From: Haladaptatus caseinilyticus
GTDB taxonomy: Archaea; Halobacteriota; Halobacteria; Halobacteriales; Haladaptataceae
NCBI RefSeq assembly: GCF_026248685.1
Contig: NZ_CP111036.1
Location: forward strand, 992,001 to 1,056,000
Direction of reading: 5' to 3'
Length of the DNA: 64,000 bases
The notes below the pieces were generated by a model that saw only the letters and a list, made by a program, of their open reading frames with translations, made no database searches and was not told the DNA's origin. The position numbers and the translations under genes are program-made. The first letter of the stretch is position 1; each line of letters begins with the position of its first letter. Below are positions 3,557 through 42,769 of the stretch, one piece after another.

Positions 3557-6328
3557 CTACGCGTTTTTGACTTGCCGGAGTACATCCGGCGCGTCTTCCA
3601 GCGCGTCGTCCAACTTGTCGGCGTCAGGGCCACCGCCCTGCGCGAAGTCGGCAGGACCGCCGCCGCCACCACCGACGCGCGACGCGAGTTCGCCGACGAC
3701 TTCGCCAGCGTTCAACGAGACGCCGTTTGGCACCGCGACGACGAATTGGGCACCGTTAGCACCGCTTCCGATGACCGCGATCTTGCCTTCCTCGGCCATC
3801 GCGTTCGCGGTCGCACGGAGTTCGTCCATGTCGGCGTCGATTCGCTGGATGACGGCAGACGTTTCGCCGACTTCGATTTCCTCGCCGCCGCCCGAGCCAC
3901 TGGCACGGGCTTCGGCGAGTTGTTCTTTCAGGTTCTCTATCTGTTTGCCGCGAGCCTTCCATTCCTCGAAGAATCGCTCGGCGGTGTCCGGTACGTCCAC
4001 GGGAGCAACGTCGAGGATGTCGGCTGCGGATCTGAGTGAGTCCTCGGTTCTCTGGGTCGCCTCAATAGCCGCGTCCCCTGCGGCGAACGTGAGTCGTTCG
4101 ACACCATCCTGTACGCGCTCGGTATTGAGGAGTTTGATACAACCGACGTCGCCGGTTCGGCGGACGTGGGTGCCACCACACGCTTGCACGTCCTCAGCGA
4201 CGTGGATGAGGCGGATGTTCGTCCCCGCGGGGATACCCCCTTGATACAGGTCGAAACCGAACTCCTCTTCGGCCTCGTGGCGGTTTGGCCATTCCTGTTG
4301 GACCGTCGTGTTCTCCATGACGATTTCGTTCGCCAGTAGTTCGATTTCCTTCGCGGTTTCGCGGTCGATGCGCTCGTAGTGACGCACGTCGATACGCGAA
4401 CTGTCCGGTCCTTTCTGGGCGCCAGCCTGCCGGATATGGTCGCCTAGTACCTGCCGGGCCGCGTGGACGACGATATGTGTCGCCGTGTGATGGCGCATCA
4501 GTCGGCGACGGCGCTGGGCATCGATTTTACCCCGAACGATATCACCCTTGTCTACCGGTTCGTCGGTACAGTGGAGGATGACGCCGTTCTCGATTTGGGT
4601 GTCGGTAACGGTCACCGTCATCTCATCGGTCGAGAGTGAACCGTGGTCGCCCGGTTGACCACCGCCTTCCGGATAGAACATCGTTTGGTCGAGCACCACG
4701 TCGTACCCCTCTTCGCGCTCGAACACGTCGAGAACGACGGCCTCGAAGTCGGTTCGATACTGGTCTTCGTAGTACAGCCGTTCCGTTTTCGGGAGGTCCT
4801 GGAGACGGTCGTCGGCCGAGACCGCTTCCTCGAAGGCCTGCCCGCCATCGTGTCGGTCCGCGACGAGACTGTAGAAGTCGTCGGGAACCTCGACCGAGAC
4901 GCCGAACTCGTCGGCGATCTCCTCGACCATGTCCGGTTGCAGACCGTGGGAGTCGTACAGCTCCACGAGCGTCGAAGTCGGGATCGATTTGCCCTCCTCG
5001 GCGTGTTGCTTGGCGATGCGTCGCACCCTTCGCCCGCCCTGTTCGAGCGTTTCGCGGTACTTTTCGACTTCCGTTCGAACGATGTCACGAATCGTATCGC
5101 GGTTCTCGTATTCGAGCCGTTCGGCCTGCATATCCACGAGTTCGTCCAGCGGCGCATCGACGCCGACGTTATCACAAAGCCGTTTCGTCCGGCGGAGCAC
5201 CATCCGGGCGAGGTAGCCCGTCGAGACGTTGCTCGGGACGATACCGTCGCCGAACATGTAGGCAAGCGCCCGACTGTGGTCAGCGATAGCGTAGATAGTT
5301 TCCAGTGGTTCCACCAGGGTTTCGAGTTCGTTCGTGGAGACGCCGAGTTTGTCCGCGATGTTGTCGCGGGCGGCTTCCATGTCCTCGGCCTCGTCGATAT
5401 CCATGTGGCCCGCGAGTTTCGCGGCGCGGTGGACGAGTTCGTCCTCTTCCTCGGAGTGTTCGATATCGGCGTTCTCCTTGAGGAACTCGATCATGTCGGG
5501 ATAGACCGCCTCGTAGACGGTCGGGGTGCCCTGACTCATCCACGTCCAGCGTTCGAGACCGTATCCGGTATCCACGATGTACGTGTCCATCGGCGAATAG
5601 CGGTTACCGTCCTTGAGTTCGTACTCGCCCTCGGGGTCTTGCTCCATGGACATGAAGACCAGCGTGGCGAGTTCCGCACCTTTGTAGATGACTTCGATTG
5701 CGGGACCCGCGTTACCGCCGCCGACCCACGGGTCTTCGATGTACGTAATTTCGTCCAGGTCCGCGCCGACCGATTCGAACAGTTCGTCGCAGTAGGCGAC
5801 GGTTTGGTCCTTCCAGTAGACTTGACCCTCGTAGGCGTACTTCTCTTCGGCGTCCTCGCGGACGTTGAAGGCATGGTGGGCCATCATCTCGAAGGCCATC
5901 GTGTGCCGCCCTGTCTTCCCCACGTTGTCGATGTCCTGCATCCGAATGCAGGGTTGACTGATGGTCAACGGATTCGCTGGTGGTGGCGTTTTACCGCTGG
6001 TGACGAGGGGTTGGAAATCGTAGATAGACGCCTGTGTCAGCAGCACGTCGTCGCGCCAGCGGTTTGCGGCGACCGGATACGGGTCGATTCGCTCGTGGTC
6101 GTGCTCCTCGAAGAACGAGAGGAACACCTCCCGCATCTCCGATAGCGTGTACTCCTCCTCGAAACCGGGGTCGTCGATGAAGCCGTACTCCTCGCACGGC
6201 GGTTCCCCGCATGTCTCGCGGTCGTGATCGCGCGTCCAGAAGTGCGCACCACACTCGGAGCATTCTTTTCGTACAAAGTCATTTTCCTCGAAATAGTCGA
6301 GGCGGTACTCCTCCTCGAGTTCGCTCAT
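3557..6328 (-). CDS. alaS: alanyl-tRNA synthetase
   Basis: A 923-residue class II synthetase that charges tRNA-Ala in the cytoplasm. The N-terminus carries an archaeal zinc-binding insert (CSECGAHF...CGEPPCEE), then the catalytic core (for example [19 protein letters not shown] and [12 protein letters not shown]). The editing domain has HHTATH and the downstream [10 protein letters not shown] zinc motif that clears mischarged Ser/Gly, and a Gly-rich C-terminal domain follows. The ATG at 6328 ([15 protein letters not shown]) matches the usual haloarchaeal start; an ATG at 6349 would add seven residues. It lies 52 bp after the ABC exporter pair and may be read through from it. Confidence 0.97.
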
Positions 6329-40673: not shown

Positions 40674-40860
40674 CGAAGAACGAAAGCCATCATACGCCCA
40701 ATTTTGGAGCGATATTCGTTTGAAGAGAAGAAATAAAACCCAGTCGTTTTCAGACATTACTATACAATAAAATATATTTCCATAATATTTATATCAGTAT
40801 CAGAGAAGGTAAGAAATTATTAAAACTACCAAGTAGATATTGTTGGTTGAGGTTAAATAG
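40674..40860. promoter_or_regulatory. AT-rich promoter region of the first SH3b-M23 gene
   Basis: This 187-bp segment is strikingly AT-rich against its GC-rich surroundings. A TATA-like TTTATAT at 40788-40794 would start transcription near 40817, giving a leader of about 44 nt with a Shine-Dalgarno GAGGT at 40849-40853, seven bases before the ATG. A leadered mRNA differs from the leaderless pattern of most neighbours. Confidence 0.5.
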
Positions 40861-41595
40861 ATGGGAAATAAACTGACCCGACGGCAGATACTGAAAGGAA
40901 CAGGCGCAGCAATCCTCGGCACGGCAGGCGTGACAGCAACCACCAACACGGCCGCCGCGCACACCATTGGGACTGCATCCTACACGACAGACAATCTCAA
41001 CGTCCGCAGTGGCGTCGGCACCGAAAACAGCGTCGTCGCTACCGCCGAGAAATACACTGGAATGCACACCGTTGACGGTCCGTGGAACGAAGACGGCTAT
41101 ACCTGGTGGGAAGTCGAAACCAACGGCGACAGCGACAACGGTCGAGTCCGCGGCTATGCAGTAGAACAGTACCAGGCTCATGCTGACTTCTCGTTCCCGG
41201 CAACGGGATACGTCTCCTCGGACTACGGCCAGCGGTCAAGCGGGTTCCACGGCGGCGTTGATATCGCCAACGACACCGGTACGTACATCTACTCCTCACG
41301 CGCCGGTACCGCTTATACGCGCTACGAAGCAGGCGGCTGTGGGAACTACATCGTTATCGACCACGGTGGAGGTTACGAAACCCTCTACTGCCACCTGAAC
41401 GATTTCGCCGTGTCGAACGGCGAGTACGTGGGTCGCCACGAGCACATCGGTTACATGGGAAGTACCGGTAACAGCACCGGTCCGCACGTCCACTTCGAAG
41501 TCAACTACAACAACGAAGAGCAGTTCGTCACCGGCGACCAGGGCGAAGAAGTGTATGCCAAGTCAGGAATGCCGAAAAACTACAGCGGAATCTAA
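40861..41595 (+). CDS. Tat-exported SH3b + M23 (LytM-type) peptidase, copy 1
   Basis: A 244-residue exported protein. The Tat signal (Arg7-Arg8 in KLTRRQILKG) ends at an AAAH cleavage region near residue 33. A bacterial SH3 domain spans about 38-104 (DNLNVRSGVGTENSVV). The M23 metallopeptidase domain (about 112-225) has zinc ligands His130, Asp134 and His211 with catalytic His178 and His209 (FHGGVDIAND, YCHLND, GPHVHFEV). All catalytic residues are present. Such enzymes cut glycyl or peptide cross-links of bacterial peptidoglycan, which this archaeon lacks, so a bacterial target is likely. There is no lipobox or membrane anchor, hence secretion. Origin by transfer from bacteria is inferred. 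Confidence 0.88.
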   Translation: MGNKLTRRQILKGTGAAILGTAGVTATTNTAAAHTIGTASYTTDNLNVRSGVGTENSVVATAEKYTGMHTVDGPWNEDGYTWWEVETNGDSDNGRVRGYAVEQYQAHADFSFPATGYVSSDYGQRSSGFHGGVDIANDTGTYIYSSRAGTAYTRYEAGGCGNYIVIDHGGGYETLYCHLNDFAVSNGEYVGRHEHIGYMGSTGNSTGPHVHFEVNYNNEEQFVTGDQGEEVYAKSGMPKNYSGI

Positions 41596-41865
41596 ACGTC
41601 GTTCAACGAATTTCAACTTTTTTCGAACGCCGACAGTCGTAGTTCAGTAACGGTCGAGAGCATACAACTGACTAGGTGGCTAACCGGTACCGGTAAAAGT
41701 TGTCAGTATTAGAAAACAGCTAGCAACTAGAAACTTGTTTATCGGTTGCCTGTGGGTGATTTTCCGCTTTTGGATAGAGATATCGACAGCTAAATTGCAG
41801 AGTAGATTTTGAGATATAAAAACTTAAATTTTAGAATTCATCATTAATCGATGGAGTTCCAAACA
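41596..41865. promoter_or_regulatory. AT-rich promoter region of the second SH3b-M23 gene
   Basis: Contains GATATAAAAACTTA at 41812-41825, a strong TATA candidate placing the transcript start near 41844, close before possible ATGs at 41851 and 41866. The region is AT-rich like the one before copy 1, so each copy probably has its own promoter. Confidence 0.5.
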
Positions 41866-42600
41866 ATGTCAGACAAGTTCAGCCGACGGAAGTTCCTCAA
41901 CGCATCAGGTAGCGCAGTCCTTGGCGGGACGGTGCTCGCCGCATCGACCGACAGCGCAGCGGCGCACTACACCGGCCTTCCGATTTATACGACCGACAAC
42001 CTCAACGTTCGAAGTGGACCGGGAACGAACTACGGTGTCGTTGCAACTGCCGAGCAGTATACTGGCGGTTACATCATCGACGGACCCGTGAACAGCGACG
42101 GCTACACGTGGTGGAAAATCCAGTTCAACGGCGACGGCAACAACGGCCGAGTGACTGGTTGGTCCGTGGAACGGTACACTGCGCACGCCGACTTCTCGTA
42201 CCCAGTCGTCGGACAGGTGAGCCAAGAGTACAAGAGTGGCCACGCCGCACTCGACATCGCCGCCGACACCGGAACGCCCGTCGTTGCCTCCCGTGAGGGA
42301 ACCGTGGACGTGACCGGCTACGAATCCGGAGGGTGCGGCTACTACATCAAAGTCGGCCACGGTGCTGGCTACCAGACGATGTACTGCCACCTGAGCGATA
42401 TCCACGTTTCCGAAGGCCAGAGCGTCGGCCGTCACCAACACATCGGTGACTGTGGTAGTACCGGGAACAGCACCGGGCCCCACGTCCACTTCACCGTCGA
42501 GCAGAACGGAGCACACCAATACGTCGCCGGCGACTTGTACGACGAAATCGACGACAAGACGGGTATCGCGAAGAACTACAGCGGTATCGGGTCGTTCTAA
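41866..42600 (+). CDS. Tat-exported SH3b + M23 (LytM-type) peptidase, copy 2
   Basis: A 244-residue paralogue of the preceding gene, alignable almost end to end. Tat signal Arg7-Arg8 (KFSRRKFLNASG), AAAH cleavage region, SH3b domain (DNLNVRSGPGTNYGVV) and M23 domain with His126, Asp130, His175, His206 and His208 (GHAALDIAAD, YCHLSD, GPHVHFTV). The SH3b and C-terminal parts are well conserved between copies, while the substrate-facing stretch around 113-130 differs, hinting at different cleavage preference. The start at 41866 matches copy 1; an in-frame ATG at 41851 would add five residues. Expected secreted peptidoglycan hydrolase. Confidence 0.88.
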   Translation: MSDKFSRRKFLNASGSAVLGGTVLAASTDSAAAHYTGLPIYTTDNLNVRSGPGTNYGVVATAEQYTGGYIIDGPVNSDGYTWWKIQFNGDGNNGRVTGWSVERYTAHADFSYPVVGQVSQEYKSGHAALDIAADTGTPVVASREGTVDVTGYESGGCGYYIKVGHGAGYQTMYCHLSDIHVSEGQSVGRHQHIGDCGSTGNSTGPHVHFTVEQNGAHQYVAGDLYDEIDDKTGIAKNYSGIGSF

Positions 42601-42769
42601 CGTCCGCGTACCGGTAGTCGGACTAAACCAGTTCATTTGTTTTTCGCGATGGAGCACTCCCCATAATCCTCACACCGATAGCGATCGAACAGGGAGTGAG
42701 CGATTTATACGATCTTTTTCAAAAATCCACGACGCTACGTTTTTTTCATACGGTACCCGAGGAGTGAAC

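Follow-up and report, generated by a model that had tools for sequence, protein, structure and literature searches.

The 64,000-nucleotide stretch of Haladaptatus caseinilyticus DNA analysed here (the window) contains two neighbouring genes for apparent secreted peptidoglycan hydrolases and raises the question of what such enzymes would do in an archaeon of the class Halobacteria, which to our knowledge has no peptidoglycan. The products of the two genes, c1 (copy 1) and c2 (copy 2), are predicted to be Tat-exported M23 zinc metallo-endopeptidases acting on bacterial peptidoglycan, where the N-terminal SH3b domain would bind the wall and the LytM domain would cut peptide bonds of the stems or cross-bridges. 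That the two proteins have peptidoglycan hydrolase activity is very probable. We also consider it on balance probable that they are exported endopeptidases of bacterial walls whose released fragments are imported and digested, in a role of feeding accompanied by killing. Export, activity, substrate, joint action and feeding are all read from homology.

Domain architecture and active sites of c1 and c2

Two open reading frames of 244 amino acids, each combining a twin-arginine signal with an SH3b and an M23 domain, had been described in an earlier note on this DNA, and both are present (Table 1); c2 may start at ATG 41866 or at the in-frame ATG 41851, which would give 249 amino acids. The proteins are 58% identical overall, with 63% identity in SH3b, 60% in M23 and 42% in the signal. 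The TAT_signal model reaches 16.9 bits in c1, under the Pfam cut-off of 22.7, and the twin-arginine motif was read from the sequence.

Table 1. Features of the c1/c2 locus and of the putative peptide cluster (window positions unless a contig is named).
Feature	Position	Strand	Basis
c1, SH3b-M23 protein with twin-arginine signal, 244 aa	40861..41595	+	ORF list, Pfam, c1-c2 alignment, structure model
c2, SH3b-M23 protein with twin-arginine signal, 244 aa	41866..42600	+	ORF list, Pfam, alignment
c1 twin-arginine signal (LTRRQIL ... AAAH), residues 1-33	40861..40959	+	sequence; putative cleavage site
c2 twin-arginine signal (FSRRKFL ... AAAH), residues 1-33	41866..41964	+	sequence; putative cleavage site
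c1 putative SH3b, ~residues 38-104	40972..41172	+	weak SH3_3; all-beta in c1 model; family profile against PDB
c2 putative SH3b, ~residues 38-104	41977..42177	+	SH3_3 E 8e-4, under cut-off; fold match to SH3b of wall-degrading enzymes
c1 M23 (LytM), ~residues 109-220	41185..41520	+	PF01551; Foldseek to M23 enzymes; H130, D134, H178, H209, H211
c2 M23, ~residues 109-217	42190..42516	+	PF01551; H126 and H206-x-H208 present
TATA-like element TTATTAAAAC upstream of c1	40817..40826	+	sequence only; putative promoter
TATA-like element TATAAAAA upstream of c2	41815..41822	+	sequence only; putative own promoter
Slot of variable content, with Prx (to 40673) on one side and Sua5/YrdC-like gene (from 42770) on the other	40674..42769		nine-genome comparison
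Putative murein-peptide utilisation cluster	contig C1 ~672.7-691.1 kb (L239:7713-18482, L241:532-9101)		profile searches

The SH3_3 model (PF08239) gives 12.5 bits in c1 and 20.0 in c2, both of which miss the Pfam cut-off of 27, and passes it with 36.4 in a further SH3b protein encoded in this genome (L181). The region is all-beta in the predicted model of c1 (pLDDT ~74-87) and in an AlphaFold2 model of c2, and among the best PDB matches of the latter SH3 domains from wall-degrading enzymes of bacteria, phages and eukaryotes predominate, at a Foldseek probability of 1.00 with an E-value of only ~0.01 for a model of pLDDT 77 built from four sequences. A profile of the SH3b family matches the bacterial SH3 chains 2krs (E 7e-5) and 2kq8 (E 0.002), and together the models and matches support the predicted SH3b assignment in both proteins despite the weak Pfam score. 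In this genome the family adjoins wall-hydrolase domains only (M23 four times, Amidase_2 three times and SLT once). A modular peptidoglycan hydrolase is defined by one Pfam catalytic and one Pfam wall-binding domain (PMC12352652); in c1 and c2 the Pfam catalytic domain is present and the wall-binding SH3_3 lies under its cut-off. Since SH3b scores this low, SH3b-M23 proteins could escape a Pfam-based census, and archaeal peptidoglycan hydrolases may therefore be undercounted.

Peptidase_M23 (PF01551) scores 98.2 (c1) and 94.4 (c2) bits against a cut-off of 28.7, and the M23 model of c1, with pLDDT mostly 89-98, matches solved M23/LytM enzymes in Foldseek. The HxxxD and HxH residues of c1 (H130, D134, H178, H209 and H211) are all kept in c2, in agreement with the earlier claim of intact zinc and catalytic residues and with the numbering His126/His208 given for c2. 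From knowledge of the family, H130, D134 and H211 presumably bind zinc and H178 and H209 are presumably catalytic. The fold and zinc site are as in the bacterial M23 enzymes StM23 (9gy1), ShyA, LytM, lysostaphin and zoocin A, from which c1 and c2 differ in the N-terminal SH3b, the archaeal twin-arginine signal and a cysteine pair, C160 and C177 of c1 (window 41338-41340 and 41389-41391). These cysteines occur together in 22 haloarchaeal M23 proteins and never singly, which suggests a putative disulfide, and the pair is absent from all bacterial M23 homologues compared.

Two readings in which bacterial peptidoglycan is not the working substrate can be weighed here. That c1 and c2 are non-functional leftovers of gene traffic, kept by chance, is very improbable: zinc-site residues are altered in some relatives and one homologue carries an early stop (see below), but neither c1 nor c2 is truncated, both retain the complete set of five active-site residues and are preceded by TATA-like elements, and the site is kept in most haloarchaeal members. 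Some M23 enzymes cut glycine-rich proteins and not peptidoglycan, and a membrane-type M23 protein, related to proteins of many haloarchaea, is encoded in this genome as well; both points would suit enzymes for processing envelope or extracellular matrix proteins of the archaeon itself. Such a role is nevertheless improbable, as the c1/c2 SH3b family also occurs in fusions with amidase and transglycosylase domains, which normally act on the bacterial wall, the M23 domains are common to PG_binding_1 proteins, and presence at the slot that holds c1 and c2 is patchy in the genus, unlike that of housekeeping genes.

Relationships of the two copies and gene turnover at the Prx-Sua5 slot

In the tree, c1 groups with a protein of another Haladaptatus genome (G008) and c2 with proteins of G002 and G015, and a sister relationship of c1 and c2 is rejected (AU p 0.0015), which rules out a simple tandem duplication. 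The description of the genes as a duplicated pair consequently does not hold, each copy grouping with genes of other genomes, and the supposedly distinct arrangement is less singular than had been thought, since a second tandem M23 pair lies in this genome and two more genomes of the family carry tandem SH3b-M23 pairs (L041:3763-4476 and 4568-5311; L049:4035-4748 and 4853-5596). In the latter pairs, the position of the first zinc His is occupied by Gly in the first member, and the last HxH histidine is replaced by Asp in the second.

The AT-rich regions upstream of both copies are real, with a GC of 0.31 before c1 and 0.39 between c1 and c2 against a median intergenic GC of ~0.56 in the window, as estimated from crude gene calls. 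Their earlier reading as a sign of transfer from bacteria is not supported: the coding composition of c1/c2 (GC 0.578/0.603 and GC3 0.70/0.75) equals that of neighbour genes, upstream regions are AT-rich at the majority of the genome's 13 hydrolase-like genes, whatever their location, and the haloarchaeal M23 domains hold a position separate from bacterial ones. In a 97-row M23 tree, a branch (SH-aLRT 89) separates 54 haloarchaeal domains from 43 bacterial ones, a result consistent with a single origin of the haloarchaeal domains and short of proving it, because the tree has 138 columns and its bacterial sample was picked by pattern search. A recent bacterial transfer of c1 and c2 is supported neither by composition nor by this tree. 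A phage origin and a plasmid link were likewise rejected: a tblastn search in phages returned no record covering 80% of c2, and plasmids gave one haloarchaeal homologue (43%, Halocatena salina), the other matches listed being bacterial M23 proteins. The motif TAGAAA was found, by reading, upstream of 6 of the 13 hydrolase-like genes, compared with 2/157 other upstream regions and 2/15 AT-rich ones; the last count leaves it inseparable from a generic AT-rich promoter, and it was rejected as a shared element of the 13 genes.

The slot that holds c1 and c2 is flanked by genes that, judged by reading of their sequences, probably encode a peroxiredoxin (Prx) and a Sua5/YrdC-like protein, and these flanks stand in the same order in all nine Haladaptatus genomes. 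M23 genes occupy the slot in three of the nine, with differing contents, and in the other six it is empty (52-161 bp without M23). The slot of H. halobius (G002; L234:4364-5098) contains a homologue of c2 whose fourth codon, ahead of the Tat motif, is a stop, and that of G006 (L231:4495-5214) a distant SH3b-M23 gene, ~40% identical. There is gene turnover at this slot, and full-length SH3b-M23 genes are patchy across the class. Variable slot content among nine species, with one copy interrupted by a nonsense codon, resembles the turnover of antagonism genes and, with the patchy occurrence in the class, speaks for enzymes that are primarily weapons, in the manner of bacteriocin-like lysins released to kill bacterial competitors, with wall material being no significant food. 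We regard a primarily antagonistic role as rather unlikely, since 13 hydrolases of four catalytic families and a cluster of importer and D-amino-acid peptidase genes, described below, exceed the needs of killing.

The hydrolase repertoire and characterised haloarchaeal enzymes

The genome encodes at least 13 twin-arginine peptidoglycan-hydrolase-like proteins (6 M23, 5 Amidase_2, 1 glucosaminidase and 1 SLT), c1 and c2 among them and eleven more elsewhere, and their families would target the glycan, amide and peptide bonds of peptidoglycan. With no peptidoglycan in the class, no immunity gene would be needed, which fits the scattered organisation of the hydrolase genes. The M23 proteins of this genome carry SH3b or PG_binding_1, and M23 domains of the haloarchaeal group carry either SH3b or a C-terminal double PG_binding_1 module; no C-terminal PG_binding_1 was detected in c1 or c2 in the Pfam scan. 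Because PG_binding_1 carriers require at least three changes on the M23 tree, with a single clade rejected (AU p 2e-6), wall-binding modules have been exchanged among M23 domains; an SH3b protein (L001) and a PG_binding_1 protein (L004) of this same genome group closely in the tree.

Reports of archaeal enzymes that kill bacteria were mentioned in the earlier note, and such literature exists: Halalkalibacterium halodurans is killed by two hydrolases of Halogranum salarium B-1, named Woldo and Danwoldo (Strock et al., 2025, PMC12352652). NF052336 (PdgHdaseHSB100310) is apparently the Woldo model, as read from its HSB1 name (H. salarium B-1) and its architecture, and NF052335 apparently the Danwoldo model, its HSB1 name being read as an H. 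salarium B-1 gene. Two proteins of the present genome pass NF052336 (L004 and L006, 568.6 and 571.7 vs 500) and the glucosaminidase L176 passes NF052335 (658.5 vs 500), whereas c1 and c2 fall far under the NF052336 cut-off (154.5 and 142.2 vs 500). Woldo resembles c1 and c2 as a haloarchaeal M23 protein with a twin-arginine signal, and the NF052336 proteins of this genome share the haloarchaeal M23 group of c1 and c2, but in Woldo the M23 domain is followed by two PG_binding_1 domains, whereas in c1 and c2 SH3b precedes M23 and PG_binding_1 is lacking. Danwoldo is likewise a secreted haloarchaeal hydrolase but is a glucosaminidase. The killing of H. halodurans by these closest tested relatives is a further point in favour of weapons (PMC12352652).

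A putative murein-peptide utilisation cluster and the probable role of c1 and c2

Elsewhere on the chromosome, profile searches outline a putative murein-peptide utilisation cluster, which comprises Prok-JAB, NlpC/P60 with SH3_3/SH3_16, Beta-lactamase2 (BLA2), an SSF symporter, LysA, SBP_bac_5 together with a pair of permeases and a pair of ATPases, S13/PBP4, an M55 D-aminopeptidase and an S9 peptidase, with substrates suggested by the family names. The S13 protein passes TIGR00666 (PBP4, 214.8 vs 107.8) and has the SNTK, SDN and KTG motifs, the LysA protein (DAP decarboxylase) passes TIGR01048 (lysA, 308.3 vs 297.9) and may serve lysine synthesis instead, and the Peptidase_M55 protein lies under the cut-off of the DppA model (192.8 vs 430).

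JAB, NlpC, LysA, SBP, OppB/C/D/F, S13 and S9 occur together in regions of all eight other Haladaptatus genomes, M55 in seven of them (not G008; 8/9 counting the present genome), BLA2 in six (not G008 or G002) and SSF in five (not G005, G004 or G001), at E <= 1e-20 in 20-kb regions, where a missing match does not prove absence. The cluster core is common to the genus and the gene content is not identical; fixed synteny of the entire cluster was rejected, as M55 lacks a match in one of the eight genomes, BLA2 in two and SSF in three. Among eight further members of the family, G015, G016, G020, G023 and G024 have the core in another order with no JAB, SSF or M55 detected, and G011 (13.5 kb), G014 and G009 have only parts of the cluster. 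NlpC/P60 is present in 9/9 Haladaptatus vs 1/31 genomes outside the family, and in 17/27 genomes with SH3b or Amidase_2 vs 2/32 without (p 3e-6; within the family p 0.12), an association with hydrolases that is largely phylogenetic; S66 is widespread.

In Bacillus subtilis, the ykf-dpp murein-peptide genes cluster a peptide ABC importer, an NlpC/P60 enzyme and a DppA-type D-aminopeptidase. The archaeal cluster also joins an importer, NlpC/P60 and D-aminopeptidase, in the present genome and seven of the eight other Haladaptatus, but adds S13/PBP4, LysA and a Beta-lactamase2 protein, and a dipeptide epimerase was not among the genes seen. No open-access paper was found that combines archaeal muropeptide utilization with D-aminopeptidase. 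An OppBCDF-MppA uptake set is reported to be enriched in hydrolase-carrying archaea, and killing, scavenging or both were left open as functions of archaeal peptidoglycan hydrolases (PMC12352652). A PBP4-type protein in Haladaptatus paucihalophilus has been called surprising, and a weapon or wall recycling was suggested (PMC4604126).

Wall fragments would probably be imported and digested via the oligopeptide ABC importer, NlpC/P60, S13/PBP4, M55 and LysA of this cluster, so the role of c1 and c2 is probably feeding on the walls of bacteria, alive or dead, with killing as a means or side effect. The cluster tilts the inference to feeding, with which killing remains compatible, and its core varies less within the genus than the c1/c2 pair does, which argues against weapons as the primary function. 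With signals, SH3b-M23 architecture and complete sites in place, bacterial peptidoglycan is the most likely target, as the earlier note proposed, and its two options, weapon or feeding tool, were the right ones to consider. As a tentative extension, Haladaptatus and its relatives may be peptidoglycan feeders, in which secreted hydrolases of several bond specificities with swappable wall-binding modules would be followed by peptide import and by cytoplasmic digestion of D-amino-acid and DAP peptides. Haladaptatus is a genus with named cultured strains, and the 13 candidate enzymes and the peptide-utilisation cluster make killing and scavenging separable by experiment. The membrane-type M23 protein of this genome (L007:853-1947) falls in another group, and in several of its relatives, which occur in many haloarchaea, the first zinc His and the Asp are unaligned.
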